From a virus, in IMG/VR virus record IMGVR_UViG_3300031565_009125, positions 1-30,837 of that record: DNA of 30,837 bases; one strand, given 5' to 3'. Of the stretch, positions 2,581 to 26,597 are shown piece after piece. The position numbers were made by a program, and so were the translations under genes. Numbering within the stretch: position 1 is the first letter of the stretch; the number at the start of each line of letters is the position of its first letter. The notes below the pieces were generated by a model that worked only from the letters and a program-made list of their open reading frames with translations, ran no database searches and was not told where the DNA came from.

Positions 2581-2609
2581 TTGACAGGGTAGTACATTCG
2601 TGCTAGTAT
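2581..2609 (+). promoter_or_regulatory. Rightward promoter of the left small-gene cassette
   Basis: TTGACA (2581-2586), exactly 17 nt, then TAGTAT (2604-2609) preceded by TG at 2601-2602, giving an extended -10. Transcription should start near 2616, placing the first structured leader at the mRNA 5' end. It has a perfect -35, and no gene lies between it and the cassette. Confidence 0.7.
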
Positions 2610-2615
2610 GTGGAA

Positions 2616-2658
2616 GATGGCTAGTAGACGAGGGCGAAGGCCCGGAAGGGGAGAGAAG
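2616..2658 (+). promoter_or_regulatory. Structured leader 1 of the left cassette
   Basis: Follows the cassette promoter. It contains CTAGTAGACG, a GGGC-GAAG-GCCC hairpin (2632-2643) and the purine-rich site GGAAGGGGAGAGAAG before ATG 2659. The same order recurs at 2911-2951, 3895-3926, 23443-23475 and 24046-24085. Confidence 0.6.
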
Positions 2659-2871
2659 ATGCATCGAGCAGCAGAAGGCCGAGAGGTTGTCAGAATCCTG
2701 CGGGATGTCGCCCGCAAAGTGGAGCAGGGCCAGACAGAGGGAAAGCCGATGGATATGAACGGGAACAGCGTAGGCGAGTACGGATTCACGCAAGGCCGCA
2801 CCGATGGCAGCCGGCGCCGGTTTACCGTCACGATCCAGGCGGACAATGACGCATTCAAAGACTACTCCTAG
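2659..2871 (+). CDS. Small hypothetical protein, first gene of left cassette
   Basis: 70 aa. A helical N-terminus (VVRILRDVARKVEQG) is followed by MDMNGNSVGEYGF and a strand-rich end (RRFTVTIQADNDAF). The pattern resembles the 64-aa product at 22516-22710 in the right cassette: LR-x-VA...E-x-G, D-x-(N/D)-G-x-x-(V/I)-G, then F, D and F at similar spacing. The two are probably distant paralogs. ATG 2659 is chosen because it follows the GGAAGGGGAGAGAAG ribosome site; an upstream ATG at 2608 would start inside the promoter. Function unknown. Confidence 0.7.
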   Translation: MHRAAEGREVVRILRDVARKVEQGQTEGKPMDMNGNSVGEYGFTQGRTDGSRRRFTVTIQADNDAFKDYS

Positions 2872-2951
2872 CCCCTGCCCTTAGCCCTCCTTCGGGAGGG
2901 CCTGCGCGAGTAGCTAGACGAGAGGGCGAGAGCCCGGAAGGGGAGAGAAGA
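2872..2951 (+). promoter_or_regulatory. Structured leader 2 (UUCG hairpin plus GAGA hairpin)
   Basis: Two hairpins precede the ribosome site. The first is GCCCTCC-TTCG-GGAGGGC (2884-2901), a 7-bp stem closed by the very stable cUUCGg loop. Then CTGCGCGAGTAGCTAGACG, then GGGC-GAGA-GCCC (2924-2935) with a GNRA-type loop, then GGAAGGGGAGAGAAG and ATG at 2952. The middle block recurs almost unchanged on the minus strand near 24091-24072. Confidence 0.65.
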
Positions 2952-3332
2952 ATGGCGAACCGGACACTGAAACCACGACAATGCCGAACCGGAACAGAAC
3001 CAGGAATGGACTGCTACAACACAGGACTCGCCCCGCGCATCGGCCGCAGCAAGTGCGGCGAATACTACATTGTGGGGACCGAACTCGCAGTACAAGACGC
3101 GTACAACAGGCTCAGGCGTGGGGCTAGCCCGCGGGCCATTCACGCTGAGAAGGACGGCCGATGGTTCCCTGTTCACATCTACGCAACAGCAGCGCCAGCA
3201 TGGCGAGCATATGACGCGGCCAACGAAAAGGCGCGGGAAAGGGTGCGGGCCGACATTAGAGAGGCGGAGGCCCGACGCCAGCAGATTCTTACGGGCACAG
3301 CAGAAGAGGCGATTGAAGCTATCCTGCGCTGA
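2952..3332 (+). CDS. Hypothetical protein, second gene of left cassette
   Basis: 126 aa. The N-terminal half (residues 10-60) has three cysteines and a GEYYIVGTELAVQDAYNRL segment. The C-terminal 50 residues are a charged helix, probably coiled (AANEKARERVRADIREAEARRQQ). It ends ILR-stop; the same CTGCGCTGA ending occurs in two right-cassette genes because the stop lies inside the conserved leader that follows. No family recognised. Confidence 0.7.
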   Translation: MANRTLKPRQCRTGTEPGMDCYNTGLAPRIGRSKCGEYYIVGTELAVQDAYNRLRRGASPRAIHAEKDGRWFPVHIYATAAPAWRAYDAANEKARERVRADIREAEARRQQILTGTAEEAIEAILR

Positions 3333-3411
3333 CCTCCGCCCCGGCCCATCCACGCGGTGGGCCGAGCCGGGAAGTCAGACGGAGCGCGAGAGCGCGAGGA
3401 GGGAGGAGCAG
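3322..3411 (+). promoter_or_regulatory. Long structured leader, copy A1
   Basis: Begins inside the last codons of the upstream gene. Elements: CTGAC (3329-3333) complementary to GTCAG (3374-3378); inside them CGGCCCA (3342-3348) pairing with TGGGCCG (3358-3364) around a 9-nt loop; then GCGC-GAGA-GCGC (3384-3395) and a GAGGAGGGAGGAG ribosome site before ATG 3412. An alternative CCCGGC/GCCGGG pairing would exclude part of the main stem. Near-identical copies occur on the minus strand at 23711-23796 and 23144-23222. Confidence 0.65.
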
Positions 3412-3666
3412 ATGGCAGAGAGAGAATATGGGATCGGACGAATACCAGCGGACGTGGACCCGGTAGAGGAGACGCTCGCTGAGATCGAGGCTGAGCGAAT
3501 ACAACCTAGCTACAGGCCAGCGGCCGGGTTGGTCGAACCCACAGGGACCACGCAGGGGCACGCGGTGCCCAAGGCGACTCGATGCCAGGTGTGCGGCGCG
3601 CCGGCTGATGGTTATAACCCAGGCGCCGGGCAGGACCTGTGCGCTCGGCACTGGGACGAGTATTGA
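3412..3666 (+). CDS. Small putative zinc-binding protein, left cassette
   Basis: 84 aa. Starts MAEREYGIGRIPADVD, followed by an acidic helix (ETLAEIEAERIQ). The C-terminus has CQVCGAPADGYNPGAGQDLCARHWDEY, a C-x2-C...C-x2-H arrangement that fits a single zinc site. The ATG is fixed by the strong GGAGGGAGGAG site 3 nt upstream. No enzyme motif; a role in binding nucleic acid or a host protein is possible. Confidence 0.7.
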   Translation: MAEREYGIGRIPADVDPVEETLAEIEAERIQPSYRPAAGLVEPTGTTQGHAVPKATRCQVCGAPADGYNPGAGQDLCARHWDEY

Positions 3667-3688
3667 GAGCGAGAGAGGAGATCGCACG

Positions 3689-3865
3689 ATGACGCGACGA
3701 GAGCATTATGCCGGAAAATGGGACGGCATCTGCAAACGGTGTGGACACGACTATATCAACGACTGCCGCGGGAACTGCACCTGCCTCTCCTGCAACGGTC
3801 AGCGACAGGACGAGGAACGAGAGGGTCTGCGTTTCGAGGAGGACCAGGATTTCGTGCAGCACTAG
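3689..3865 (+). CDS. Small Cys-rich protein, left cassette
   Basis: 58 aa. Contains CKRCGHDYINDCRGNCTCLSC (residues 15-35) with six cysteines, enough for a compact zinc ribbon, followed by an acidic tail (DEEREGLRFEEDQDF). The ribosome site is GAGAGAGGAG, 8 nt before the ATG. Unlike its neighbours it has only a 23-nt gap upstream and no obvious hairpin, so it is probably translated along with the preceding gene. Function unknown. Confidence 0.65.
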   Translation: MTRREHYAGKWDGICKRCGHDYINDCRGNCTCLSCNGQRQDEEREGLRFEEDQDFVQH

Positions 3866-3926
3866 CCCCCCCGGTGGGGTGGGGCTTGGGGTGGAGACGA
3901 GGGCGAAGGCCCGAGGAGAGAGGAAG
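3866..3926 (+). promoter_or_regulatory. Structured leader with G-rich hairpin, copy 1
   Basis: Opens with a C7/GGTGGGGTGGGG block able to form a hairpin; G runs continue to 3894 (GG-T-G4-T-G4-CTT-G4-T-GG), so an RNA G-quadruplex is an alternative. GGGC-GAAG-GCCC (3901-3912) and a GAGGAGAGAGGAAG ribosome site follow, before ATG 3927. The first block is repeated at 4311-4331. Confidence 0.55.
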
Positions 3927-4310
3927 ATGGAAGCGACAATGAGAGTGGGCGATGTTGTAGTGCCGAAATGTGGAGACCCGGAGAACGAGGTCGGATATAC
4001 CGGCAGGGTGGTAGCGATAATCCCAAGTCCCGGCGCGACCTACCCTCCGCAAATCGAGGTGCGATTCCCCGACGATCACTCCGACTGGTGGAGAGAAGAC
4101 GAGTTGACGCCCGCCAAGGCCACAATGAAGATCACCATGGCAGATCAGCGGTGGGAGAAGATAGAATCCCAGCTCCCCGCTGAGGAGCGAGGGGAGTGTG
4201 GGGAGTGTCACGCAGAACCGCTCCCGGCGACGTACTACCTGCTTGTAAACGGGGCCGCCACCATCTGCCCCAACTGCTACCGCCGACTGGAGAGAGACGG
4301 AGGTCTCTAA
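3927..4310 (+). CDS. Hypothetical protein: small beta domain plus C-terminal zinc ribbon
   Basis: 127 aa. Residues 5-60 (MRVGDVVVPKCG...YTGRVVAI...IEVRFPD...WWREDEL) look like a small beta-barrel of the SH3/KOW kind. The C-terminus has CGECHAEPLP...ATICPNCYRRLE, a C-x2-C / C-x2-C zinc ribbon. ATG 3927 follows GAGGAGAGAGGAAG. An internal ATG before DQRWEKIE could give a second, ribbon-only product, but has no good ribosome site. Confidence 0.7.
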   Translation: MEATMRVGDVVVPKCGDPENEVGYTGRVVAIIPSPGATYPPQIEVRFPDDHSDWWREDELTPAKATMKITMADQRWEKIESQLPAEERGECGECHAEPLPATYYLLVNGAATICPNCYRRLERDGGL

Positions 4311-4360
4311 CCCCCCCGGTGGGGTGGGGCGCGGGAGAAAGAGAGGAGAGAGGAGCGTCC
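4311..4360 (+). promoter_or_regulatory. Leader with G-rich hairpin, copy 2
   Basis: Repeats about 20 nt of the C7/GGTGGGGTGGGG block seen at 3866. The next part is different (GCGCGGGAGAAAG) and lacks the GAGA hairpin. GAGAGGAGAGAGGAG precedes ATG 4361. Confidence 0.5.
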
Positions 4361-4573
4361 ATGCCCAAACCCGACGATCTGTCCGACGCTGCCCGCCGCC
4401 TGGTGAAACAATCCCACGCCGCGCAGAAGAAGAAACACGGGAACGGATATAGCCAGGAGATGATGCGCCGAGGACGAAAAGGGGGCTGGCCCAAGGGCCA
4501 CCCGAGGAAGAAGAAGCAGGAAGGCCCCGGTGATGAGCCGGGGTCTTCTCTCAGGCTACCCGCACCCCTTTGA
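4361..4573 (+). CDS. Small basic protein, last gene of left cassette
   Basis: 70 aa, strongly basic: KKKHGNGYSQEMMRRGRKGG, then WPKGHPRKKKQ. It may bind nucleic acid. The last 17 codons run through the terminator hairpin at 4521-4547 and overlap, tail to tail, the last gene of the minus operon by 23 nt. The ribosome site GAGGAGCGTCC is weaker than in its neighbours. No family recognised. Confidence 0.6.
   Translation: MPKPDDLSDAARRLVKQSHAAQKKKHGNGYSQEMMRRGRKGGWPKGHPRKKKQEGPGDEPGSSLRLPAPL
4521..4547. terminator. Bidirectional hairpin between converging operons
   Basis: AAGGCCCCGG (4521-4530) pairs with CCGGGGTCTT (4538-4547) across a 7-nt loop: a 10-bp stem with one G-T wobble. For the minus transcript the bases after the stem are pyrimidine-rich (CCTGCTTCTTCTTCC). 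It sits where the plus cassette and the long minus operon meet. Confidence 0.55.
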
Positions 4574-5578: not shown

Positions 5579-6875
5579 CGTCGCCCTCGATGCTAGCCCA
5601 GTCAATGACGCGTTCGCAGTTCGGACAGGTCGGACTGGACTTGCGTCCCGCATCATTGCCAAGGTACTCCCCGCACCCGCAGTAGAACAGGTCCCCCTCG
5701 GCAATACGCTGCCTCCCCGCCAATTGGTGAATCCGCAGTATCTTCGCCTTCGCCTTCGGCTCCGACTCGACGCGGCGGATGGCGTAGTATCGTTCGGGCA
5801 GCGACAGGTCTGTAATCACGTCATCCCCGAAGAAACAATACGCCTCCCCTGAAGTCAATCGCCGGCAATCGCCAGTCCCTCCCCCCTTGGGGATGACATA
5901 CCAATCTGTATCCAGTTCCCCCTCAGACTTAGGCCAGACCCCCACAACCCGCTCCCCCTCCCGCTCCTTCCGCAGGCGCTCATTCTCGCTCTCCGCCTCC
6001 ACCTGAGCACGCGCGGCTTCTGCCAGACCGACCTCCCACTCGTGGCAGCACTCAGTACACTCCTCCTGCCGGCGGGCGTGCTGGGCGCGGGCGGCGGCGA
6101 TGGCCTTGCTCCAGACCTCAATGGGCACCAGACACGCGGCCCCCGCTTTCTGGTCCTGGCGCAACCCGGCAAGGTATTCCTCTGCCAGCGACATCAAGTC
6201 TATGTCCAACAAGCCACCATCATCCACCGCGTCCCCCTCGGGCGCGGCGTCGGGGGTTGGTTGCTCCTCCACCTTCGGCTCGATGGGGCGGATGGCGATA
6301 TGGCGGGCCGACCAAGGCTCCCAGTCGGATCGCGGAGCATCTACTATGATCTCTACCCCGATGTATGTGCCGTCGGAGTGAACGTGGTAATAGTGCTTCC
6401 CGGAGTCAATCCCCCCTCCCTGATCCATTAGTTCGAAGACCCGCTCCCCCTCCCGCTCCTTCCGCAGGCGGGCGTTCTCGCTCTCGGCTTCCGCCTGAGT
6501 ACGTGCGGCTTCTGCCAGACCGACCTCCCACTCGTGGCAGCACTCAGTACACTCCTCCTGCCGGCGGGCGTGCTGGGCGCGGGCGGTGCCAACTAACCTG
6601 TCGGTCCCAGCCCACCACTGGTCGCTGTCACGATATCCGCCACCTCGTTGATCTATGCGGTCCAGCAGCGCCTCCACCGCATCCCCCTCCGGCGCGGCGT
6701 CGGGGGTGTCGCAATCGGGACACTCGTCGGGGGTGAAGGTGAGGGTGCCGGGAGCGTCAACATTGACCCCTACTGCCATAAGCACACTATCTGCCCCCAT
6801 GATGCCGTCGCAGCAAACTGCCTCAAACTGCCTTCCTCCGCGGAATCCCGCAGACTCTATCCTCACGCTCGCCAT
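5571..6875 (-). CDS. Large hypothetical protein with internal duplication and C-terminal zinc ribbon
   Basis: 434 aa. The start at 6875 (MASVRIESAGF) follows GGAGGAGG by 6 nt. A block occurs twice: DAAPEGDAV, a variable part, then RAQHARRQEECTECCHEWE, VGLAEAARxQxEAESEN and RLRKEREGERV. The second half of each block is a coiled coil preceded by a CxxCC cluster. Between and after the blocks lie unrelated strand-rich pieces. The C-terminus has YCGCGEYLGNDAG and CPNCERVIDW, a zinc ribbon. At DNA level 147 bp are repeated with about 8 differences, so the duplication is recent or kept by gene conversion. No enzyme family recognised. Confidence 0.7.
   Translation of the reverse strand: MASVRIESAGFRGGRQFEAVCCDGIMGADSVLMAVGVNVDAPGTLTFTPDECPDCDTPDAAPEGDAVEALLDRIDQRGGGYRDSDQWWAGTDRLVGTARAQHARRQEECTECCHEWEVGLAEAARTQAEAESENARLRKEREGERVFELMDQGGGIDSGKHYYHVHSDGTYIGVEIIVDAPRSDWEPWSARHIAIRPIEPKVEEQPTPDAAPEGDAVDDGGLLDIDLMSLAEEYLAGLRQDQKAGAACLVPIEVWSKAIAAARAQHARRQEECTECCHEWEVGLAEAARAQVEAESENERLRKEREGERVVGVWPKSEGELDTDWYVIPKGGGTGDCRRLTSGEAYCFFGDDVITDLSLPERYYAIRRVESEPKAKAKILRIHQLAGRQRIAEGDLFYCGCGEYLGNDAGRKSSPTCPNCERVIDWASIEGDDA
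5948..6094 (-). repeat. Internal direct repeat, copy 1
   Basis: 147 bp matching 6440-6586 without gaps and with about 8 mismatches by eye. Encodes the CxxCC and coiled-coil part of the second protein block. Confidence 0.85.
6440..6586 (-). repeat. Internal direct repeat, copy 2
   Basis: Partner of 5948-6094, 492 bp away. The flanking DAAPEGDAV-coding segments (about 6226-6257 and 6674-6705) are also repeated but at a different spacing, so the original unit was larger and has since been altered. Confidence 0.85.
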
Positions 6876-9133: not shown

Positions 9134-9743
9134 CGGAGCCTCCTGTGAGGACTTCCTTGGATTCTGTCCACGTCTGTTCGCGATGGTTCACCCAATCTCG
9201 CTGTTGCACTTCGGCCGCGGTACTGGCCACAACCTCGCCTAGGTCAATCCCGAACGACTCCGCCAACTGACAGGCGAAGATGAGCATATCGGCGAGGGCA
9301 TCACTGACCCGTTCCCTGCTCCAATCCTCTGGCTTGATCTGATTCACACACTTAATTCCGGCACGCACTAGGGGTCCGATGGCCTGCCCTAACTCAAAGT
9401 ATTCTTCGGCTACCCCTCCGGCGTGCGCGAGCATGAGTTCGTTCTTCGTCATGTGTGGGAAGTTATGCTTTACCCATACGGTGTGGGCGCGCTGGATGGC
9501 CGATATGTCTCTCGCCACCGCCGCCCGGATGTCCGGCACGAACACCTCGCCCTTCTCGTCCGCGCAGCCGAGGGCGCGGAGAATGGCATCGACCTGGACG
9601 CAGGCCATGTTCAGCGTGAATTCATTCGTGGGGTAGGAGTCTGGACCATTCTGCCTCATCTGTTCTTGACACATGGGCTTGATTGCATCTAGGGCTAGCC
9701 TCGCCAGCGCCTCCACCTGCTTGTCCGTCGTCTGCTCAGTCAT
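9123..9743 (-). CDS. MazG-like nucleotide pyrophosphohydrolase
   Basis: 206 aa. The C-terminal two thirds show the all-alpha NTP-PPase pattern: AEEYFELGQA (E113, E114 and E117, the EExxE helix), then DALADMLIFACQLAE (D148 and D152), then a closing VVASTAAEVQQRDW helix. Such enzymes hydrolyse NTPs or alarmones to monophosphates; phage versions may change nucleotide pools or ppGpp. The N-terminal 75 residues (MTEQTT, AILRALGC, GEVFVPD) are shared with the product at 10394-10732, so this looks like a separate helical module fused in front. It overlaps both neighbours. Confidence 0.75.
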   Translation of the reverse strand: MTEQTTDKQVEALARLALDAIKPMCQEQMRQNGPDSYPTNEFTLNMACVQVDAILRALGCADEKGEVFVPDIRAAVARDISAIQRAHTVWVKHNFPHMTKNELMLAHAGGVAEEYFELGQAIGPLVRAGIKCVNQIKPEDWSRERVSDALADMLIFACQLAESFGIDLGEVVASTAAEVQQRDWVNHREQTWTESKEVLTGGSDEQ

Positions 9744-10401
9744 CGCTCTTCACCTCCATCTGCCGACTGATTTCCTGAACAACCCGCTCGTGCATATCGT
9801 TCGCGGCGAGGTCAGACTCCTGGGTTATGGGTCCCTCTAGCGACCACGGACTCTCGAAACTCACCTCGCGCTCAATGTTGGCCTCCCAGTAGGGCTTCTC
9901 ATAGACCGCATGGAACGCCATCGTTTCGTAGAAGCGTTCCAGCCCGATCTCTTCTATCTCGCCATCATCCTTGAGCCTCATGTCCCCGACCGTCGATACA
10001 ACTATCCGCTTCCGCCCGCACTGGAGCAGGGTGTTCCGGCGGAAGGCACAGCGACCAACGCATATGAAGTGGGCCGCCCAACCCCGTTCGGTGCGCTTGA
10101 CTTTGCTCATCGCTTCGCCTCCATCGCCTCCCTTCGCTCCCGCGCTCGCAAGCCTAAGTAGCATTAGCACCTGCGCCAACTCCTCGCGGGTGTGTTGGTG
10201 ACCGGCTAGCCACAACTCCCGCGGCGCGAGGTGTCCTGGCGCTTCCCCATCATCGCCAACCCACTCGCTTCCACAGAAGCCTGTCCTCATCGCATCCACT
10301 ACCTGCGGGCCATCGTATGGCCGCCAACAGAGAGCGATAGCACCCCCGGGCAGGTTCTCGCAGCAGGGACAGTCTCGACAGGTGACGACCTCCTTAGCCA
10401 T
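9736..10401 (-). CDS. Two-part phage protein: Cys-rich head plus conserved phage domain
   Basis: 221 aa. Residues 1-50 carry five cysteines (CRDCPCCENLPGGAIALC, TGFCGSEWV), a likely zinc module, followed by a helix. From residue 98 (MSKVKRTERGWAAHFIC) the sequence matches a type of short phage protein I recall as standing alone: CAFRRNTL, RIVVSTVGDM, YETMAFHA, then FESPWSL and NDMHERVVQEI. An ATG at 10110 starts that second part with GGAGG just upstream, so two products are possible. AGGAGG is 5 nt before ATG 10401. Biochemical role unknown. Confidence 0.65.
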   Translation of the reverse strand: MAKEVVTCRDCPCCENLPGGAIALCWRPYDGPQVVDAMRTGFCGSEWVGDDGEAPGHLAPRELWLAGHQHTREELAQVLMLLRLASAGAKGGDGGEAMSKVKRTERGWAAHFICVGRCAFRRNTLLQCGRKRIVVSTVGDMRLKDDGEIEEIGLERFYETMAFHAVYEKPYWEANIEREVSFESPWSLEGPITQESDLAANDMHERVVQEISRQMEVKSDD

Positions 10402-10732
10402 CATCGCCTCCTGTGAGGGCGCGCCGGATTTCCCTCACTGCTTCTCGAATGAAACGTTCATACATCACGTCATAGGTCTTGGTCGCTCCCCCGTCTATCT
10501 CGTGCAGGATGCGGAGCGCCCTCGCCACGTCCGGCACGAACACCTCGCCGTCGCGCTCGCAGCCGAGGTGACGGAGGAACGCTTTCGCCTGTCTGGCCGC
10601 GATCAATCTCCGGTGGGATTCCCGGCCCTCGGGTGTCCGCGCTGGTGGACCCGTAGCCACAAACTCGTCAACCTCTCGCAGCAGAATGTCCTCCAACACC
10701 TCCAGCTTCTCGACAGTCGTCTGCTCAGTCAT
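10394..10732 (-). CDS. Hypothetical protein sharing the MazG protein's N-terminal module
   Basis: 112 aa. MTEQTT, a helical stretch, FLRHLGCERDGEVFVPDVARAL (about residues 52-73) and an IREAVREIRRALTGG tail. The opening and the LR-x-LGC...GEVFVPD block match the protein at 9123-9743, so a segment was duplicated within the operon. It overlaps the previous gene by 4 nt and the next by 8 nt. Function unknown; with its paralog it may make homologous contacts. Confidence 0.65.
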   Translation of the reverse strand: MTEQTTVEKLEVLEDILLREVDEFVATGPPARTPEGRESHRRLIAARQAKAFLRHLGCERDGEVFVPDVARALRILHEIDGGATKTYDVMYERFIREAVREIRRALTGGDDG

Positions 10733-10953
10733 CGCTTCTCCTCCATCGCTTCGATGCGCTCCACGAGGTCGGCGAGGGCGTCGGAACGGGTGCGACCTTT
10801 CGCATATTGGGGCGGACTTGCCCCGTCAGCGTCCCACGCGTCTACAATCCATCCATCCATCCATCCGGTGAGCGTTCCTATCTCTTGCCGCTTCATGCGT
10901 CCCAGTCGCCACCCGCACGCCTTCAGCCTCCGCTTCGCCTCCGCAACGGTCAT
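10729..10953 (-). CDS. Small basic hypothetical protein
   Basis: 74 aa from an ATG at 10953 just after the upstream stop (TGACATG). MTVAEAKRRLKACGWRLGRM, then GWMDGWIVDAWDADG and a helix (RSDALADLVERIEAMEE). The frame is open further upstream to 11073, but that part overlaps the preceding gene. The ribosome site is weak, so translation is probably coupled. No family recognised. Confidence 0.55.
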   Translation of the reverse strand: MTVAEAKRRLKACGWRLGRMKRQEIGTLTGWMDGWIVDAWDADGASPPQYAKGRTRSDALADLVERIEAMEEKR

Positions 10954-11520: not shown

Positions 11521-11801
11521 CACGACTCCTTCCTCGCCTTTCGCTTCGCCGCAATCTCCTGCTTCAGATCGTCCGATAGCCCTGGAGTCCGCAACAACAC
11601 ATCAATGATCGACTCCGGTTCGCCGCCGCGCTGAGGGGCAGGCGTTCGCTTCTCGCGCCGCTCTCGCTGTATCCTCGCGTAGCACTCCCGCCAGTTGTGC
11701 CGTCGTCCGCAGTGAACGCACGGGGGGAAGGAGGGGGCGCGGTGCTGTTCGGTCCGTTCAGGTTCAGGCGACTCTACCCACCAAGGACGCTTGCCGCTCA
11801 T
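11520..11801 (-). CDS. Small zinc-knuckle-like protein
   Basis: 93 aa. CVHCGRRHNWREC (residues 28-40) is a C-x2-C-x3-H-x4-C array, one residue shorter than a retroviral knuckle. A basic region (RERREKRTP) and a C-terminal helix (IIDVLLRTPGLSDDLKQEI) follow. It directly follows the replication-initiator gene, sharing ATGA, so a role in single-stranded nucleic-acid binding during replication is a fair guess. Confidence 0.6.
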   Translation of the reverse strand: MSGKRPWWVESPEPERTEQHRAPSFPPCVHCGRRHNWRECYARIQRERREKRTPAPQRGGEPESIIDVLLRTPGLSDDLKQEIAAKRKARKES

Positions 11802-12679
11802 CGCTTCGCCCTCCTCGCCAGTAGCGTCTTGATACGATTCAGGTGATAGTGACTGACGATGGTCTGCAGCAGGGGGACGCTCTCGCCCCAGGCATCATCC
11901 TTGCCCGACACCGCGTAGGCAATGACTGCCCGCACTTTCTGCCAACCATCCTCGCCCTCTTTTGCGTGCTCCTTGAGTGTCGCCTTGAGTCTAGCCGTGT
12001 CAACTATCCCGATTGCCACCTTCTCATCGGTGAGGGAACGGTATCCGTCCGCGTACGCCTGAAGGCATTCCATCCAACCGGGCGGAGCCTTCGCGACGCC
12101 CGTATTTTCGGGTTCGGTTACGGCTACGGGTACGGATACGGAGACCCCCGACGGTTTGATATAGGTTTCCGTAGCTATCGCGAACCCTTCGCGAAGGGTT
12201 TCCTCGGACACGGGAAAACCGTTGGCGCGACAGGCTGAAGCTATGATTTCAACTTCCGTGAGGTCCACGCCCCTGCTGAGGTTGTAGCCTATCACCAGGG
12301 AGGCGAGTTCGGGGGGCTTACGGAGGAGGTCTTTCGCTGAGGCGACGAGCTTGTTGGGGCTGTCGGAGCGGTAGCCGATGTAGTTCTTGACCCACCAGTA
12401 GTCCCGGTCAGGGAACCAGGCAAGGCCGCTTATGGGTTGGGCGGTGGCTTCCTCGACCATAGTGCGGAATCTCTTCGGGGTTAGCTTCTTGAAGTTGGCG
12501 AGGTGGCGCACGGCGTCAATGGGGCACTGGAAGAGACCGCTTGGGGTTCGCATCGGCCCCATCCATGCCCACTCAAACAGGAGGACGTGGGCGAACTTGC
12601 CCGCGAGCATCAGCGACTTGATCCACGCGTCGCCCCAAAACTTGTTGCACTCAAATTCCTCGTATCCCTCGCCTGCCAT
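11798..12679 (-). CDS. Putative replication initiator / replisome organizer (DnaD- or O-like)
   Basis: 293 aa. Residues 10-105 resemble the N-terminal winged helix of phage replisome organizers: FWGDAWIKSLMLAGKFAHVL, PSGLFQCPID, then a DYWWVKNYIGY strand, matching the family pattern 'iw.d..v..L....k.L...L......GiyeislekiA...g.....ve..l...v.....WvkNfi'. A flexible V/S/P linker follows (about 175-195), then a helical C-terminal domain (GWMECLQAY...DGWQKVRAVIAYAVSG). The linker DNA holds tandem hexamers and a perfect palindrome, like the lambda O gene where the origin lies inside. ATG 12679 has AGGAG 11 nt upstream. Confidence 0.6.
   Translation of the reverse strand: MAGEGYEEFECNKFWGDAWIKSLMLAGKFAHVLLFEWAWMGPMRTPSGLFQCPIDAVRHLANFKKLTPKRFRTMVEEATAQPISGLAWFPDRDYWWVKNYIGYRSDSPNKLVASAKDLLRKPPELASLVIGYNLSRGVDLTEVEIIASACRANGFPVSEETLREGFAIATETYIKPSGVSVSVPVAVTEPENTGVAKAPPGWMECLQAYADGYRSLTDEKVAIGIVDTARLKATLKEHAKEGEDGWQKVRAVIAYAVSGKDDAWGESVPLLQTIVSHYHLNRIKTLLARRAKR
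12105..12200. other. Candidate replication origin inside the initiator gene
   Basis: Tandem hexamers of the form GNTACG (GTTACG, GCTACG, GGTACG, GATACG; 12117-12140, with a degenerate unit before them), then an AT-richer stretch (GGTTTGATATAGG), then a perfect 18-bp palindrome AACCCTTCGCGAAGGGTT (12183-12200). The order of iterons, AT-rich DNA and palindrome within the linker of the initiator gene parallels lambda ori in gene O. This is an inference from layout. Confidence 0.4.
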
Positions 12680-13682: not shown

Positions 13683-13903
13683 GGGTTCTTCTCCTTCCGG
13701 GCGGCGAGTGCGTCGATGGCAGCCCAGTCATCATCATCGAGACTTGAAAGGTCCCTCTCGCCAAGAGCATTCCGCAGCCCCTCCGCCACCGTCTTGAGTT
13801 CCGCGAGGGCAGCGAGGGCGGCGTCCTTCTCTTTGCGCTCCCTAACGTAGCAATCTCGCATATGCTCCCATTGGGCGTGCCATGTTGTTCCGTTTGTGCT
13901 CAT
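13679..13903 (-). CDS. Small coiled-coil protein
   Basis: 74 aa: MSTNGTTWHAQWEHMRDCYV, then a charged coil (RERKEKDAALAALAELKTVAE) and an acidic DLSSLDDDDW patch. ATG 13903 has GAGGGAAAGAGG upstream and overlaps the previous stop as ATGA. The open frame extends to 14014 but that part overlaps the preceding gene. No family recognised. Confidence 0.6.
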   Translation of the reverse strand: MSTNGTTWHAQWEHMRDCYVRERKEKDAALAALAELKTVAEGLRNALGERDLSSLDDDDWAAIDALAARKEKNP

Positions 13904-14496
13904 CCTCTTTCCCTCCATAGCTCCCCTTGCTGCCCGCCCGCCTTCCGCGCCGCACCGCTCACGCCGACGCGATCCTGCCAGCGCGAGGGGGAGGGGCGGG
14001 GGACTGGTGAGCACGATGGCTGCTGCCAGCCCCCCTGCGGGTCCCCGGCGAGAGGTTCCGGGCTGTTGCTTGGCGTCGTGTGGGACACCCTCTCGGTTCT
14101 CCGGCGCATACCCGCCAACGCCGCTTCCGTCCGCTCCTTCGCCGCCTCCAGTTGTGGGTTCGGTTCTGGCTTCACGGTTCTGTCGTCTGGGTAGTGGGTG
14201 AGTCGGTGACGAAACTCCCTGCGCTCCACAATCCGCTTGGACTCAATGCGAAATCCTCTTTTCTTTAGTTGTGCCTTCGCTCCATCCCAAGACCAACCCG
14301 CCAGCAGGCCGTCCCCCCACTCAACCTTCGCGGCATTGTATGCTGCGTGAAGTTCTGAGGATGTATGCCACTTGCCGTCGCGCAGGATGCAGTAGAGTCG
14401 CCACGGGCCACGATCTGCCTGAAGCCAACGCGCTCCGTAGTCAGCCTCATCGTAGTCAAAACAGGGGGCGGCGATGGCTCGGGAGACTTGGGTCAT
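13900..14496 (-). CDS. Hypothetical protein, possible winged-helix N-terminus
   Basis: 198 aa. Residues 35-100 (PWRLYCILRDGKWHTSSELHA, AKAQLKKRGFRIESKRIVERRE) have the look of a winged helix: a helix, a 'W.t..eL' helix-turn-helix and a wing. The last 80 residues are Pro/Ser/Gly-rich and disordered. ATG 14496 overlaps the upstream stop as ATGA. A DNA-binding regulator is possible; I cannot name a family. Confidence 0.55.
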   Translation of the reverse strand: MTQVSRAIAAPCFDYDEADYGARWLQADRGPWRLYCILRDGKWHTSSELHAAYNAAKVEWGDGLLAGWSWDGAKAQLKKRGFRIESKRIVERREFRHRLTHYPDDRTVKPEPNPQLEAAKERTEAALAGMRRRTERVSHTTPSNSPEPLAGDPQGGWQQPSCSPVPRPSPSRWQDRVGVSGAARKAGGQQGELWRERG

Positions 14497-14804
14497 TGAA
14501 TCTCCGGGATGTCGGCGGGCAAGTCTCCGCAGGCCGCGTCGAGCCATGTCGCCAAGCCACATAGGTTGTCCGCGTATGTCTGCCGCCGCTGGGGTGCCTT
14601 CACTCGCCCGGTAATCGTGATGTCCGCCCTTGTTCCGATCTGCTCGTGGAGTCGCATGATCTCCCCGTCCTCATTGAGGTAAGCAAGGCCAAGGAGAACG
14701 TCTCGGTGCCGCTCCGGGGTCGTGATAATGCCACCCCGCTTCAGCGAACCTACCAGAATGAGGTCCTCCTGCTGCTTGCCCTTGAGCCTGATTTGGTAGG
14801 CCAT
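14493..14804 (-). CDS. Hypothetical protein
   Basis: 103 aa. Starts MAYQIRLKGKQQEDLILVGS with GGAGGGAGAGTG upstream. The middle (VLLGLAYLNEDGEIMRLHEQ) mixes strand and helix and ends in an acidic tail. No metal or catalytic motif; family not recognised. It overlaps the 47-aa gene upstream by one base (TGATG). Confidence 0.6.
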   Translation of the reverse strand: MAYQIRLKGKQQEDLILVGSLKRGGIITTPERHRDVLLGLAYLNEDGEIMRLHEQIGTRADITITGRVKAPQRRQTYADNLCGLATWLDAACGDLPADIPEIQ

Positions 14805-14947
14805 CACTCTCCCTCCTCGCACGCCGTTGCCGCCTGGTCGCGCCGCGCTTGTCGCTGCTGGTCGGCTAGGCGCTTCGCCTGCTTCAGTTTCTCCCATGCC
14901 GCAAGGCTCTCTGCTTCGAGTCGCTCGACTTCGCTCTGTTTGGTCAT
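14804..14947 (-). CDS. 47-aa coiled-coil mini-protein
   Basis: MTKQSEVERLEAESLAAWEK, then LKQAKRLADQQRQARRDQ: one long charged helix. GGAGAGAGAGAGC precedes the ATG and the end is coupled to the next gene. It follows the long-stem hairpin at 14970-15030. Function unknown. Confidence 0.6.
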   Translation of the reverse strand: MTKQSEVERLEAESLAAWEKLKQAKRLADQQRQARRDQAATACEEGE

Positions 14948-14969
14948 GCTCTCTCTCTCCTTTCGTTAG

Positions 14970-15030
14970 GGGGCGGCCCCGGCAAGGGTTAATCACTAAC
15001 ATGGCCAAGCCACAATACCGGGACCGCCCC
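14970..15030 (-). promoter_or_regulatory. Long-stem leader hairpin H1
   Basis: On the minus strand a 13-nt arm GGGGCGGTCCCGG (15030-15018) pairs with CCGGGGCCGCCCC (14982-14970), with one G-U wobble and a 35-nt loop, just upstream of the GGAGAGAGAGAGC site of the 47-aa gene. Both arms are identical in H2 at 15299-15354, while the loops differ. Confidence 0.6.
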
Positions 15031-15039
15031 GCGAATGTG

Positions 15040-15279
15040 CTAGTCTTCGTCTTCGGGGTCGTCCTTGTGGATGAGTTTCGCGACCTCCGGGTGCAGAATC
15101 CAGGTGTCGCCGCTTTCTGGAAACTCAACCAAACCCTCATCCTCCAGTGCCTTCACGAACTCCGTGATGGTTGCCGAGGAGTCACCAACTCCCCGCTCTG
15201 CCACTTCCAGTCTTTCAGACAGAGCGGTGATCCTGCCCTGCAACGCCGCCATGTCCTTGCCCATCTGATATCCGTCCAT
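15040..15279 (-). CDS. Small protein with coiled coil
   Basis: 79 aa. MDGYQMGKDMAALQGRITAL starts a coiled coil, followed by FVKALEDEGLVEFPESGDTW and an acidic tail (HKDDPEDED). The later part looks like a winged-helix fragment. ATG 15279 follows a GAGAGAGAGAGCG site beneath hairpin H2. It sits between the two copies of the hairpin. No family recognised. Confidence 0.6.
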   Translation of the reverse strand: MDGYQMGKDMAALQGRITALSERLEVAERGVGDSSATITEFVKALEDEGLVEFPESGDTWILHPEVAKLIHKDDPEDED

Positions 15280-15298
15280 CGCTCTCTCTCTTTCTCGG

Positions 15299-15354
15299 GG
15301 GGCGGCCCCGGCCCGCGGGTTCTCGCCGACAAGCAGCAAGACCGGGACCGCCCC
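15299..15354 (-). promoter_or_regulatory. Long-stem leader hairpin H2
   Basis: Same 13-nt arms as H1 (minus strand 15354-15342 and 15311-15299) around a different 30-nt loop, in the gap between the candidate annealing protein and the 79-aa gene. Two gaps, same stem, changed loop: the stem is what is kept. Confidence 0.6.
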
Positions 15355-15367
15355 GCAAGTGGACTAC

Positions 15368-20410: not shown

Positions 20411-21391
20411 ATGCCGGGACTATCTCGTGAGGAGTTCCCCGGCGCTATCAACTCCTTTTTGGGCTACCTTTCTGACTACCGGCGCTGCGCTAAAGGGACG
20501 ATACGGGCGTATGGCTACGACCTGCAGCTATTTACGCGGTTCCTACGGCTGCGCCACGCCCAACTGACTGAGCCTGCCGAAGTCACCCGCGAGATCGTCG
20601 TGGAGTATGCCCGGGAGCTGAGCGGTGGCCCAACGACGGTTCGGCGGCGCCTCTCGGCATTGGGGTCATTCTATAAGTACCTCGTCATCACTGGGCAGAT
20701 TGCCTCAAATCCTGTCTATGGGATTCCGCTCCCCCAGAAGAATCGCCCCCTGCCGAAGGCACTCACGTTGCTCGAACTTGATGCGCTGCTCCTGGCGGCG
20801 GAGAAGCCCTGGCATCGCGCGGCACTCTGGCTATTCTGCGGCACCGGGATTCGCGCGACCGAACTGGCGGAAATCCGCCTTGAAGACGTGGACTTGCAGG
20901 CGGCCACTTTACGGGTGCACGGCAAGGGGAACAAAGAGCGCATGGTGCCCCTCTCTACTGCCGTCATCCGGGCGATCTATCAATATCTCCCCTACCGCCA
21001 TCCATGGCGAACCGTAGACACCCTGCTCGTCAACGACTATGGCAGGCCTCTCACGGGCCGTCACCTCTATCAGGTAGTCAAGTCGTTGGTAAAGCGGGCG
21101 GGTCTTGAGCCAAAGTCGGGGGAGTCGCCGGACCCCCATGCGAAGAGCATCTCGCCCCACTGCTTCCGGCATACCTTCGCCACACAACTCGTCCGGAATG
21201 GAGTAGACATCCGCACGGTGCAGGAGCTTCTCGGGCACGCGGAACTCTCTACCACGGCCCGGTATCTGGCGGTGGATACGAACCAGAAGCGGGCAGCGGT
21301 GGAGACTCTGGCAAATTCCATGCAGGGGCGGGATGTGGTATACTCATCCCTGCATGGGCGGGAAGGGGGCCATCATGCCCGAGATGATTGA
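20411..21391 (+). CDS. int: Tyrosine recombinase (phage integrase)
   Basis: 326 aa. SAM-like N-terminal core-binding domain (residues 10-95: CAKGTIRAYGYDLQLFTRFL) and a catalytic domain from about 115. Active-site residues: R148 (GTGIRATEL), K172 (HGKGNKER), H250 and R253 (HCFRHTFAT), H276 (LLGHAELSTT) and Y285 (RYLAVD). Complete, XerC/D-sized and likely active; it would integrate and excise the element together with a small factor. GAAGG lies 9 nt upstream of the ATG. The C-terminal tail overlaps the next gene by 17 nt. I could not identify attP. Confidence 0.95.
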   Translation: MPGLSREEFPGAINSFLGYLSDYRRCAKGTIRAYGYDLQLFTRFLRLRHAQLTEPAEVTREIVVEYARELSGGPTTVRRRLSALGSFYKYLVITGQIASNPVYGIPLPQKNRPLPKALTLLELDALLLAAEKPWHRAALWLFCGTGIRATELAEIRLEDVDLQAATLRVHGKGNKERMVPLSTAVIRAIYQYLPYRHPWRTVDTLLVNDYGRPLTGRHLYQVVKSLVKRAGLEPKSGESPDPHAKSISPHCFRHTFATQLVRNGVDIRTVQELLGHAELSTTARYLAVDTNQKRAAVETLANSMQGRDVVYSSLHGREGGHHARDD

Positions 21392-21743
21392 CTGCCCTGG
21401 CTGCGGAGCCGCGAATTCGATCCACCGAGAAGGTTGCTTCAACTGCGGTGGCCTATTGCCGGGGACCTCAAGGGAATTCGCTTCTACCGATAGGGTACCA
21501 CGAGGGGACGCGCCGGTAGCCGCCCTCGTCCTCGGCATTGTCACTCTGTTCTTCTTTGGCATCCCGCTCATAGGTCCCGCCCTAGCAATTCTCGGGATAG
21601 TCTTCGCACGGCGTTCCACCAACGGCTCGAACCCCGGCATGGCGACGGCCGGATTGGTATGCAGTATCGTTGGACTCGTGCTTGCAGTCGCCTGGATTCC
21701 AGTCTATATCATCATATGGCAGTCGTTGCCGTTTGTCCCGTGA
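21375..21743 (+). CDS. Zinc-ribbon and membrane protein (DUF4190-like)
   Basis: 122 aa. N-terminal CPGCGAANSIHREGCFNCGG (residues 6-25), a C-x2-C / C-x2-C ribbon. A short linker then leads into two membrane segments (AALVLGIVTLFFFGIPLIGP and MATAGLVCSIVGLVLAVAWI) with the 'ILGIVFARRS' turn typical of DUF4190. This architecture is common in bacterial chromosomes and unusual in phages. GAAGGGGG precedes ATG 21375, which overlaps the integrase end. Likely a lysogeny or host-derived cargo gene; function unknown. Confidence 0.75.
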   Translation: MPEMIDCPGCGAANSIHREGCFNCGGLLPGTSREFASTDRVPRGDAPVAALVLGIVTLFFFGIPLIGPALAILGIVFARRSTNGSNPGMATAGLVCSIVGLVLAVAWIPVYIIIWQSLPFVP

Positions 21744-21782
21744 ACCCCGCCGGGAAGTCACATTCTGCATAGGGGGACGGAG

Positions 21783-22313
21783 ATGCTAAGACGACGCGGC
21801 TTTACCTTGATCGAAATTCTGGTCGTTATCCTCATGATGCTGATACTGATCGCCATCGCCTTTCCGGTATTCGGGGCGGCGAAGGCGAGGGCACACCAAT
21901 TGGCCTGCGGCTCGAATCTAAAACGGATCGCCGCCCTGTGTGTCATGCACTACGACATGTATAGTTCCCATCCGTCAGTCGCCGATTATGGGGTTCTAGC
22001 AGAACTGGATGGGCTAGAATATTGCCCCGATGCTCCCGAGGACATAGACACATACGCCGACAACTGGAACCCATGGCCCGCCGACAAGGAACAACTTATA
22101 GTCGGTACTACGACTACCGTAACTGGCGCATTTGTGCTCGCCCCAGAAGACCAACCGTGGGCCATCAATGATGCCGATGTCATCCGAACATTCTGTGAGC
22201 ACCGCGGGACCTGGATAATTCTATGGTGTGATGGCCATATCACGAGAGAGAAGAGCAATCCGCTAGAGATGGAGGGTTGGGACCCCGAAGCATACGGGAA
22301 ACCCAACGCATAG
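21783..22313 (+). CDS. Pseudopilin-like protein with H-x9-DG motif
   Basis: 176 aa. MLRRRGFTLIEILVVI is a type IV prepilin leader (cleavage between G6 and F7, E at mature +5), followed by a hydrophobic helix to about residue 30 and ARAHQLACGSNLKRIAAL, the usual pseudopilin spine. Near the C-terminus HRGTWIILWCDGH is H-x9-DG-H, the mark of DUF1559-type pseudopilins abundant in Planctomycetota, Armatimonadota and relatives. GGGGGACGG precedes the ATG. As the last gene of the integrase operon it is probably lysogenic cargo, perhaps altering host secretion, pili or phage reception. Confidence 0.85.
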   Translation: MLRRRGFTLIEILVVILMMLILIAIAFPVFGAAKARAHQLACGSNLKRIAALCVMHYDMYSSHPSVADYGVLAELDGLEYCPDAPEDIDTYADNWNPWPADKEQLIVGTTTTVTGAFVLAPEDQPWAINDADVIRTFCEHRGTWIILWCDGHITREKSNPLEMEGWDPEAYGKPNA

Positions 22314-22937: not shown

Positions 22938-23143
22938 CGCTTGCCGCGCTTCGCGCTGCCCTGTACTTTTCGCAGGAAGGTCTGTCCAGTCGCAAGGGTG
23001 CAGGCATCGCACAGGTAGTGAGTATCTTTCGGATGGGCCTGCATAGTCGTCACCCGTCCGCAAGCCGGGCAGATGAGGTCTCGGATTTCGCGCCGGCGAC
23101 TGTCTGCCAGGATAGCGTCAATGTCTAGCCGCTTCGCCATCAT
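22934..23143 (-). CDS. Small zinc-ribbon protein
   Basis: 69 aa. CPACGRVTTMQAHPKDTHYL then CDAC, a C-x2-C / C-x2-C ribbon with an intervening histidine, and a basic C-terminus. Begins ATGATG with GGAG 3 nt upstream of the first ATG, under leader copy A3. Function unknown; nucleic-acid binding likely. Confidence 0.7.
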   Translation of the reverse strand: MMAKRLDIDAILADSRRREIRDLICPACGRVTTMQAHPKDTHYLCDACTLATGQTFLRKVQGSAKRGKR

Positions 23144-23222
23144 TCTCTCCTTTGCGCTCTCGCTCCGTCTGACTTTCCGACTCGGCCCACCTCGCGGATG
23201 GGCCGGGGCAGAGGTCAGCGCA
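23144..23222 (-). promoter_or_regulatory. Long structured leader, copy A3
   Basis: Same order as A1 on the minus strand: CTGAC (23218-23214) complementary to GTCAG (23173-23169), CGGCCCA (23205-23199) pairing with TGGGCCG (23189-23183) across 9 nt, then a shortened GC-GAGA-GC and AAAGGAGAGA before ATG 23143. The loop differs from A1 and A2; the arms do not. The upstream gene's TGA lies inside the CTGAC arm. Confidence 0.6.
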
Positions 23223-23439
23223 GGATAATGTCGAAAATCACCTTCGACCGCGCTGGGGCTTTGGCCCCGATGGCCCACTGCCACAGGGGATCGTCGATAT
23301 CAAACCAGCTCGCGTCGGTGGCAGGAATACTTTCTTCGGGGTAAGACTCGGCATAGATAACCGCCCTTCCCGCGCCTTTCAGCCATAACTTCTCCAGAGC
23401 CCTAACAGCGGCTTCGCGAAGTGACTGCGCTTCTCCCAT
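23215..23439 (-). CDS. Small hypothetical protein, right cassette
   Basis: 74 aa. MGEAQSLREAAVRALEKLWL, then an acidic, aromatic middle (DASWFDIDDPLWQWAIGAKA) and VIFDIILR. The final codons are shared with leader A3. GAAGGAGAGAGACA precedes the ATG. No family recognised. Confidence 0.6.
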   Translation of the reverse strand: MGEAQSLREAAVRALEKLWLKGAGRAVIYAESYPEESIPATDASWFDIDDPLWQWAIGAKAPARSKVIFDIILR

Positions 23440-23515
23440 TGTCTCTCTCCTTCGGGCTCTCGCCCTCGTCTAGCTGCGGACCTCCCGAGTGGGAGGTTTC
23501 GGGGTTGCCCCCTCG
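23440..23515 (-). promoter_or_regulatory. Structured leader, right cassette
   Basis: ACCTCCC (23497-23491) and GGGAGGT (23486-23480) close a 4-nt loop; GCAGCTAGACG follows, then GGGC-GAGA-GCCC (23465-23454) and GAAGGAGAGAG before ATG 23439. It has the same element order as 2872-2951, with a different first stem. Confidence 0.6.
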
Positions 23516-23710
23516 TCAGCGCAGGGAGGCCGCTAGTGTCGGGGAGTAGGCATATATGCTCCGCGGGTAATCTGTTAACCCGCCGCACACCTTCCGGTAT
23601 CGAGTCCATGCCTCCGCTTCGATTCCCGCACTCTGTCGTGCGATGGCAACGCGTACGCTTTCCAGATAATCCGTGTAGGCCTCTTCGCGATCTTTCGGTA
23701 GGGCCATCAT
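23516..23710 (-). CDS. Small hypothetical protein, right cassette
   Basis: 64 aa. MMALPKDREEAYTDYLESVR is a charged helix; the rest (AWTRYRKVCGGLTDYPRSIY) is polar and aromatic. Begins ATGATGGC under leader A2 with GGAG 5 nt upstream of the first ATG. Ends SLR-stop with CTGCGCTGA, shared with the leader that follows. No family recognised. Confidence 0.6.
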   Translation of the reverse strand: MMALPKDREEAYTDYLESVRVAIARQSAGIEAEAWTRYRKVCGGLTDYPRSIYAYSPTLAASLR

Positions 23711-23796
23711 CCTCTCTCCTTGCGCTCTCGCGCTCCTTCTGACTTTCCGGCTCGGCCCACCGCGTGGATGGGCCGGGGCGGAGGTCAGCGCAGGAG
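23711..23796 (-). promoter_or_regulatory. Long structured leader, copy A2
   Basis: Nearly identical to A1 over about 75 nt, in the opposite orientation and about 20 kb away. CTGAC (23788-23784)/GTCAG (23743-23739), CGGCCCA (23775-23769)/TGGGCCG (23759-23753), GCGC-GAGA-GCGC (23733-23722), then AAGGAGAGAGG before ATG 23710. Here the upstream gene stops earlier, so the conserved CCTGCGCTGACC is entirely non-coding: it is kept as RNA or DNA, not as codons. Confidence 0.65.
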
Positions 23797-24045: not shown

Positions 24046-24119
24046 CTCTTTCCCCTTCCGGGCATCTCGCCCCGTCTAGCTGCTCGCGCAGGCCCCCCGA
24101 GAGGAGCCTGGACCAGGAG
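24046..24119 (-). promoter_or_regulatory. Structured leader, right cassette
   Basis: GGCTCC/GGGGCC hairpin with one wobble, then CCTGCGCGAGCAGCTAGACG (one base from the left-cassette sequence at 2901-2920), a GGGC-GAGAT-GCCC hairpin (24072-24060) and GGAAGGGGAAAGAG before ATG 24045. Confidence 0.6.
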
Positions 24120-24347
24120 CTAGAAGCAGTCTTCGAGTGTTTGCGCTGCGCCTATGGCCGTCATCCCTGCGGATCGCAGGAAGCGGATCAGCCGCTTGAC
24201 CTGTTCGGGAGATGGCCGGGGACCTTCGCCTTCGCTATACATCGCGAGGGCATCGACCTCTGCTTGTGCGTGCTGGAGGTCGTCAGGTATTCCGCCAATG
24301 TCGTCGGCAAGCTCGGTAGCCACTTCGGGTGTTAGTTCTGCCATCAT
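24120..24347 (-). CDS. Small hypothetical protein, first gene of right cassette
   Basis: 75 aa, acidic and helical: ELTPEVATELADDIGGIPDD, AEVDALAMYSEGEG, then SPEQVKRLIRFLRSAGMTAI. Begins ATGATGGC with GGAG 3 nt upstream of the first ATG, about 27 nt past the predicted transcription start. No family recognised; an acidic protein in this position could be a DNA mimic, but nothing proves that. Confidence 0.65.
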   Translation of the reverse strand: MMAELTPEVATELADDIGGIPDDLQHAQAEVDALAMYSEGEGPRPSPEQVKRLIRFLRSAGMTAIGAAQTLEDCF

Positions 24348-24381
24348 CCTCTCCTTGCGCTCTCGCCCTTCTTCTAATCCT
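24348..24381 (-). promoter_or_regulatory. Short leader with GAGA element
   Basis: Directly after the promoter: AAGAAGGGCGAGAGCGCAAG then GAGAGG and ATGATG. Only GC-GAGA-GC can pair here (GGGC faces GCGC), a weaker version of the element. Confidence 0.5.
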
Positions 24382-24409
24382 AGTATACCATATGGTGACC
24401 ATATGTCAA
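24382..24409 (-). promoter_or_regulatory. Right-cassette promoter with palindromic operator
   Basis: TTGACA (24409-24404), 16 nt, TATACT (24387-24382) preceded by TGG (extended -10). A perfect inverted repeat CATATGGT-G-ACCATATG (24389-24405) fills the spacer and touches the -35 box. A bound repressor would block RNA polymerase. Confidence 0.75.
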
Positions 24410-26505: not shown

Positions 26506-26597
26506 ATTCACCTCCATTGGCCGGGGGCGGCCCACCCGGAGGCGAGATAAGGCGGGCCACCCCCTTGCCGTGCGGAGCGAGGAGCGGAGAGGAGTCC
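26506..26597 (-). promoter_or_regulatory. Long-stem leader hairpin H3
   Basis: GGGGTGGCCC (minus 26563-26554) pairs with GGGCCGCCCC (26533-26524), one G-U pair, then GGAGG and ATG 26505. The stem resembles H1/H2 (GGGGCGG...CCGCCCC) with a C-to-T change that keeps pairing. Confidence 0.5.

Follow-up and report, generated by a model that had tools for sequence, protein, structure and literature searches.

The window, a viral contig of 30,837 bases, carries genes including those for an integrase, a DNA methyltransferase, an HNH nuclease, a RusA resolvase and an amidase. A RecE-like exonuclease gene adjoins a gene of PHROG 3657, a family itself nameless that we take to be RecT-like. Judged from its gene content, the contig is that of a temperate-type phage. 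Next to the integrase gene, at 21333–22313 (plus strand), lie genes for a DUF4190-like protein and a type IV pilin-like protein with an N-methylation motif; these are possibly host-derived cargo, and the pilin-like protein presumably resembles pilins of Armatimonadota. An Rfam match to the DUF3800-VII RNA (14031–14116, minus strand; 41.8 bits against a gathering threshold of 36.2) falls within the reading frame of the ORF at 13900–14562. One gene contains a direct repeat of 148 nt (5947–6094 and 6439–6586, 95 % identity), near which sister-phage contigs differ or break.

Small genes form two accessory clusters on opposite strands. The spacers of these clusters, together with similar elements elsewhere in the window, were as follows.

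2581–4573, plus strand: accessory cluster of small genes, headed by promoter-like TTGACA-17-TAGTAT
2581–2652, plus strand: leader l1, head of the plus-strand cluster; promoter-like TTGACA-17-TAGTAT at 2581–2609, mini-hairpin at 2632–2643
2852–2951, plus strand: leader l2, type B; hairpin, mini-hairpin at 2924–2935
3322–3411, plus strand: leader A1, type A; hairpin at 3329–3378, mini-hairpin GCGC-GAGA-GCGC at 3384–3395, SD, ATG at 3412
3862–3926, plus strand: leader l5; G-run hairpin, mini-hairpin at 3901–3912
4307–4360, plus strand: leader l6; second copy of the G-run hairpin (90 % over 29 nt), without mini-hairpin
24409–22934, minus strand: accessory cluster of small genes, headed by promoter-like TTGACA-16-TATACT with a perfect palindrome in its spacer
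24345–24409, minus strand: leader m1, head of the minus-strand cluster; promoter-like TTGACA-16-TATACT at 24409–24382, palindrome CATATGGTCACCATATG
24046–24133, minus strand: leader m2, type B; mini-hairpin GGGC-GAGAT-GCCC at 24072–24060
23708–23796, minus strand: leader A2, type A; hairpin at 23788–23739, mini-hairpin at 23733–23722, SD, ATG at 23707
23440–23528, minus strand: leader m4, hybrid; type A 5' end CCTGCGCTGAC, type B 3' end GCAGCTAGACGAG, mini-hairpin at 23465–23454
23144–23227, minus strand: leader A3, type A; hairpin at 23218–23169, GCGAGAGC at 23163–23156, SD, ATG at 23143
14947–15367, minus strand: two type C leaders (15280–15367 and a spacer ending at 14947) with a small gene between them
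26506–26597, minus strand: similar long GC-rich intergenic hairpin, GGGGGTGGCCCGCC/GGGTGGGCCGCCCCC

A small set of hairpin-bearing spacers is thus reused ahead of unrelated small genes, and A1–A3 are one type among them. A preliminary description of this DNA had singled out these three as copies of one leader, and the comparison bore this out: A1 (3322–3407, plus) and A2 (23710–23795, minus) are 95.3 % identical over 86 nt (E=8.9e-36), and A3 (23144–23227, minus) is a true copy, 88 % identical to A1 over 84 nt (E=1.5e-25). A fourth type A copy was absent from the whole record. The opposite orientation of the copies was also as described, but it merely tracks gene direction, each copy being sense to its downstream gene. 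Protein comparison of the genes next to A1–A3 detected no significant mutual homology, and whole-gene duplication was therefore rejected as the origin of the copies. A Pfam search with the small genes flanking A1–A3 gave nothing significant (the gene at 2952–3332 was checked against PHROGs only, with zero matches), and a search with the protein encoded just before A1 returned that protein alone.

The type A repeat starts at TCCTGCGCTGAC, which in A1 and A3 encodes the final codons of the upstream gene (..LR*); the last codons of these upstream genes therefore come from the repeat, which is not the case for A2. The upstream stops lie where they had been noticed before: within the CTGAC arm in A1 (TGA, 3330–3332) and A3 (TGA, 23217–23215), and about 10 nt ahead of the arm in A2, where the gene ends earlier (TAG, 23799–23797). 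The type A 5' end of m4 likewise holds the stop of its upstream gene, which ends in CTGCGCTGAC (stop at 23516) and then runs into a different hairpin. The type B leaders l2 and m2 (24047–24133) are 81 % alike over 93–99 nt, including the final codons and stop of their upstream genes, and the fold predicted for m2 has the stop codon, TAG, within its basal arm. Between the two type C leaders the stem arms GGGGCGGTCCCGG/CCGGGGCCGCCCC are near-identical and the loops unlike.

When all spacers of both clusters were read, a constant 3' part was found, consisting of AGACG(A/G)(A/G)G, the mini-hairpin GGGC-GAGA-GCCC and a purine-rich SD; the mini-hairpin also occurs as GCGC-GAGA-GCGC or with the loop GAAG. 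Upstream of it stands one exchangeable module, either a promoter, hairpin A, hairpin B, a hybrid or a G-run hairpin. The feature is thus more general than first described, type A being one of several reused leader types. The mini-hairpin is paired throughout in 8 of 10 leaders and imperfect in A3 and m1 (GGGC-GAGA-GCGC, 24368–24357). The GAGA element reported for all three type A copies accordingly forms a hairpin of 4 bp in A1 and A2, whereas A3 has just GC-GAGA-GC. One position of the mini-hairpin is compensated between types, with G-C in B and C-G in A. In the promoter spacer of m1 (24382–24409, minus), the perfect palindrome CATATGGTCACCATATG is a possible operator.

A scan with the mini-element confined the leaders to the two accessory clusters and their sister-phage counterpart, in gene orientation, with nothing ahead of structural-region genes. 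Beyond this phage and its sister phages the mini-element pattern matched only inside unrelated sequence lacking the SD/start layout. Type A leaders were found in none of the collections searched outside this phage group: a relaxed type A hairpin pattern run across viral contigs recovered the same phage only, blastn against phage records gave partial, weak matches only, and relatives chosen by RecT (~50 % identity) had zero type A leaders. The exact type A 5' arm had five matches in 84,980 genomes, which were attributed to chance because the hairpin continues beyond the arm in none of them. Start-associated repeats of another kind (GATGGAGGCGAAGCGATGA, minus strand) occur in the window at 9704–9747, 10101–10128, 10693–10750 and 11796–11819, among tightly packed genes without hairpins; two genes there have the N-terminus MTEQTT in common.

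The proposed pairings CTGAC/GTCAG and CGGCCCA/TGGGCCG were found in all three type A copies, as was the 9-nt loop, which shrinks to 5 nt once a U-G and a C-G closing pair are counted. The main hairpin spans 50 nt with 19 pairs, of which zero are broken in A1, A2 or A3, and folding of the hairpin by itself exceeded dinucleotide shuffles in stability (z of −3.3, −4.6 and −4.1, respectively). The five substitutions among the copies fall at three unpaired sites and two sites giving G-U, and none of the pairs shows a double (compensatory) change across A1–A3. Random placement of equally many changes spared all pairs in 4 % of trials, or in 33 % with base types matched (P=0.04–0.33). Since there are only three near-identical copies, RNA pairing in type A is, at the level of sequence, inseparable from DNA conservation and is not proved there.

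Type B offers two further sequences. Between its copies, CTACTC/GAGTAG against CTGCTT/GAGCAG includes one A-U to G-C replacement, the upper stem contains one U-A to C-G replacement, and each copy retains all 13 pairs. Two positions are changed on both sides, compared with zero in any slid control; 129 of 500 column shuffles did equally well, so these compensated pairs are only suggestive of RNA pairing. A covariance model built from A1–A3 alone matched l5 (E=6e-5) and l2 (E=2e-4) at the right place and strand. Its matches to m2 (E=0.009), m4 (E=0.03) and m1 (E=0.04) were weak, also correct in place and strand, and lie in the range of E-values that the model gives to reverse-strand occurrences of the hairpin on which it was built (E=0.007–0.11). 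As model scores, these matches support a common layout. Folding was also assessed for a set of 13 co-directional spacers of ~38 nt or more, taken from a hand-made gene list. All 13 carry a predicted hairpin and their combined folding exceeded that of shuffles (Stouffer Z=−5.7; mean of +0.26 for 40 coding control segments), with four of the 13 individually unremarkable (z between −0.6 and +0.5).

The repeats had also been proposed as sites of recombination, and comparison with sister phages upheld this at another leader. Four sister contigs (G001, G003, G013 and G014) lack the genes at 2653–3865, A1 included, and are 98–99.9 % identical to the window onward from 3895, where identity jumps from ~0.5 on the left to 0.94–1.0 on the right. 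The constant part of l5 begins at 3895, the point at which an m1-like promoter, CCTATTGACATAT..TATGGTATA.TAGG, is joined in the sister phages instead. As homology resumes at exactly this base, gain or loss of the cassette occurs at the leader, and by this contig comparison the leaders are gene-exchange junctions. The junction lies in the constant part of l5, not in hairpin A, and did not involve the A1/A2 inverted pair. No contig other than the window has both A1 and A2, and no inversion between the two was seen.

Such a breakpoint raises the question of whether the leaders are DNA-level recombination cassettes only, in the manner of PeSLs (see below), with homology conserved for accessory-gene exchange and the RNA fold incidental. 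The four contigs without the cassette, the hybrid nature of m4 and the placement of copies ahead of unrelated genes would all be expected on these terms. We nevertheless regard it as unlikely, if conceivable, that this is the whole explanation: equivalent spacers hold hairpins of several unrelated sequences, which homology alone need not produce, each copy is sense-oriented and ends in an SD, and the changes in type A and B stems cost no pairs. A regulatory site is a further candidate: as RNA or DNA, the leaders could bind a regulator, encoded by the phage or the host, that brings the accessory genes under joint control. The nearly fixed loop and stem sequence of A1–A3 and the sharing of leaders by two clusters on opposite strands are compatible with it. 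It appears highly improbable, as the same place is held by different hairpin sequences (A, B and G-run) and no candidate regulator was identified.

The preliminary description had further suggested that an alternative CCCGGC/GCCGGG pairing in A1 and A2 could act as a switch or couple the leader to termination of the upstream gene. The full 6 bp were found in A1 but only 5 bp in A2; A3 also has 5 bp, one of them G-U. Forcing the alternative CCGGC/GCCGG pairing cost 7.8 (A1), 12.2 (A2) and 13.2 kcal/mol (A3), so that the alternative is 8–13 kcal/mol weaker than the main fold and erodes from A1 to A3, which speaks against switching by this route. Under a translation-coupled switch, a ribosome terminating within the CTGAC arm would open the hairpin and free the SD, with CCCGGC/GCCGGG as the other state. 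The position of the stop in the basal arm of A1, A3 and the predicted m2 fold favours such a model. With a ribosome placed on the stop codon in silico, the SD-start region of A1 became easier to open (12.9 kcal/mol before, 7.4 kcal/mol after), in line with the coupling proposed, but the effect was not common to the copies: the opening cost changed little in A2 (11.9 to 9.9 kcal/mol) and A3 (9.6 to 8.9 kcal/mol), barely changed in m2 and l5, and rose in m4 (9.5 to 12.3 kcal/mol). The gaps from stop to start, 71–89 nt, also count against coupling, and this explanation is considered improbable. Because the alternative fold is weak and the SD is clearly freed in A1 alone, the folding models do not support a common switch or a common unmasking mechanism across the leaders. 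A riboswitch acting by the alternative fold was rejected on the same grounds, the fold being far weaker and SD unmasking not common; an Rfam search at A1–A3 gave no match even at E≤3.

Effects on transcription were considered in the same way. The hairpins are followed by no T-run, and no terminator-like site was found on the coding strand of the leaders; an intrinsic terminator was accordingly rejected, the stem being GC-rich without either element. Strong, GC-rich intergenic hairpins could instead be U-less terminators or attenuators, linked to antitermination and cutting gene-to-gene readthrough. The same lack of a T-run and of terminator-like sites weighs against this, as does the lack, for most downstream genes, of a promoter of their own past the hairpin, and we give it as little credence as the coupled switch. 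No promoter-like site was found within A1–A3, excluding a promoter inside type A, and among the leaders only l1 and m1 have one.

The reading that we favour, with a probability of roughly 0.55, is that these are modular start-associated leaders of accessory operons, in which an RNA hairpin organises the intercistronic spacer, setting neighbouring genes apart or linking them, and gene shuffling is secondary. The modular anatomy, the reuse before unrelated genes and the presence or absence of a cassette with its breakpoint in the constant part are direct observations, and from them we infer effects of the leaders on translation, mRNA stability or transcription. Once transcribed, the hairpin would compact the 50–90 nt between a stop and the next SD into a block, keeping the SD of each cistron as a separate small domain near the end of the previous gene. 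A spacer compacted in this manner may provide insulation, mRNA stabilization or coupling, while the common leader sequence could double as homology for the gain and loss of gene cassettes. A bolder version, which we consider quite unlikely, extends this to a phage-wide architecture: the base of the hairpin would consist of a gene's final codons and its stop, and the other arm would abut the next SD domain, folding the spacer of 70–90 nt so as to deliver the terminating ribosome near the next start, with the fold rebuilt from unrelated sequences and spreading as a module.

The closest described layout is that of the start-associated SAS and ESAS of cluster K mycobacteriophages. The SAS is a 13-bp sequence, GGGATAGGAGCCC (at most 2–3 mismatches), located 3–9 bp before the start of a subset of non-structural genes of unrelated families in temperate phages; about half of SAS have an ESAS, a 17-bp imperfect inverted repeat, just upstream, and the role of both is called unclear (Pope 2011, PMC3203893; Adephagia 2024, PMC11373665). 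ESAS contain a SigA-like promoter (−35/−10), and their repeats do not support RNA pairing (PMC3203893; PMC11373665). The leaders described here are likewise start-adjacent, sense and found at non-structural genes of unrelated families. They have an inverted repeat, with a sequence and length other than those of the ESAS repeat. In place of the SAS sequence, however, stands GGGCGAGAGCCC or GCGCGAGAGCGC, the SD lying outside it and downstream, and hairpin A keeps all its pairs and has no promoter-like site. Because sequence and promoter content differ, the leaders are not, by sequence, members of cluster K SAS/ESAS.

PeSL cassettes of T4-type phages are described, in papers citing Arbiol 2010, as modules of an intergenic stem-loop and an early promoter that shuffle small genes. 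The gain or loss of a cassette at a leader is a shared property (here the junction at 3895, at l5 and not at type A). In contrast to that promoter and stem-loop unit, type A has no promoter and only some of the leaders carry one, the stem-loop being followed directly by the conserved mini-hairpin and SD. In phage f1, genes VII/IX provide a single case of a coupling hairpin for which coupling was tested (reviewed in PMC12548453). As there, the hairpin precedes a start and lies close to where the upstream cistron ends or overlaps that end, whereas the present module is repeated, has gaps of 71–89 nt and shows no common predicted unmasking. If the favoured reading holds, an unrelated phage group has a layout like that of SAS/ESAS built from other sequence, suggesting that such leaders arise independently. 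The argument for an RNA hairpin would be stronger in this phage group than in cluster K SAS/ESAS, and its leaders may offer a cleaner system for testing roles in translation, mRNA stability and gene shuffling.
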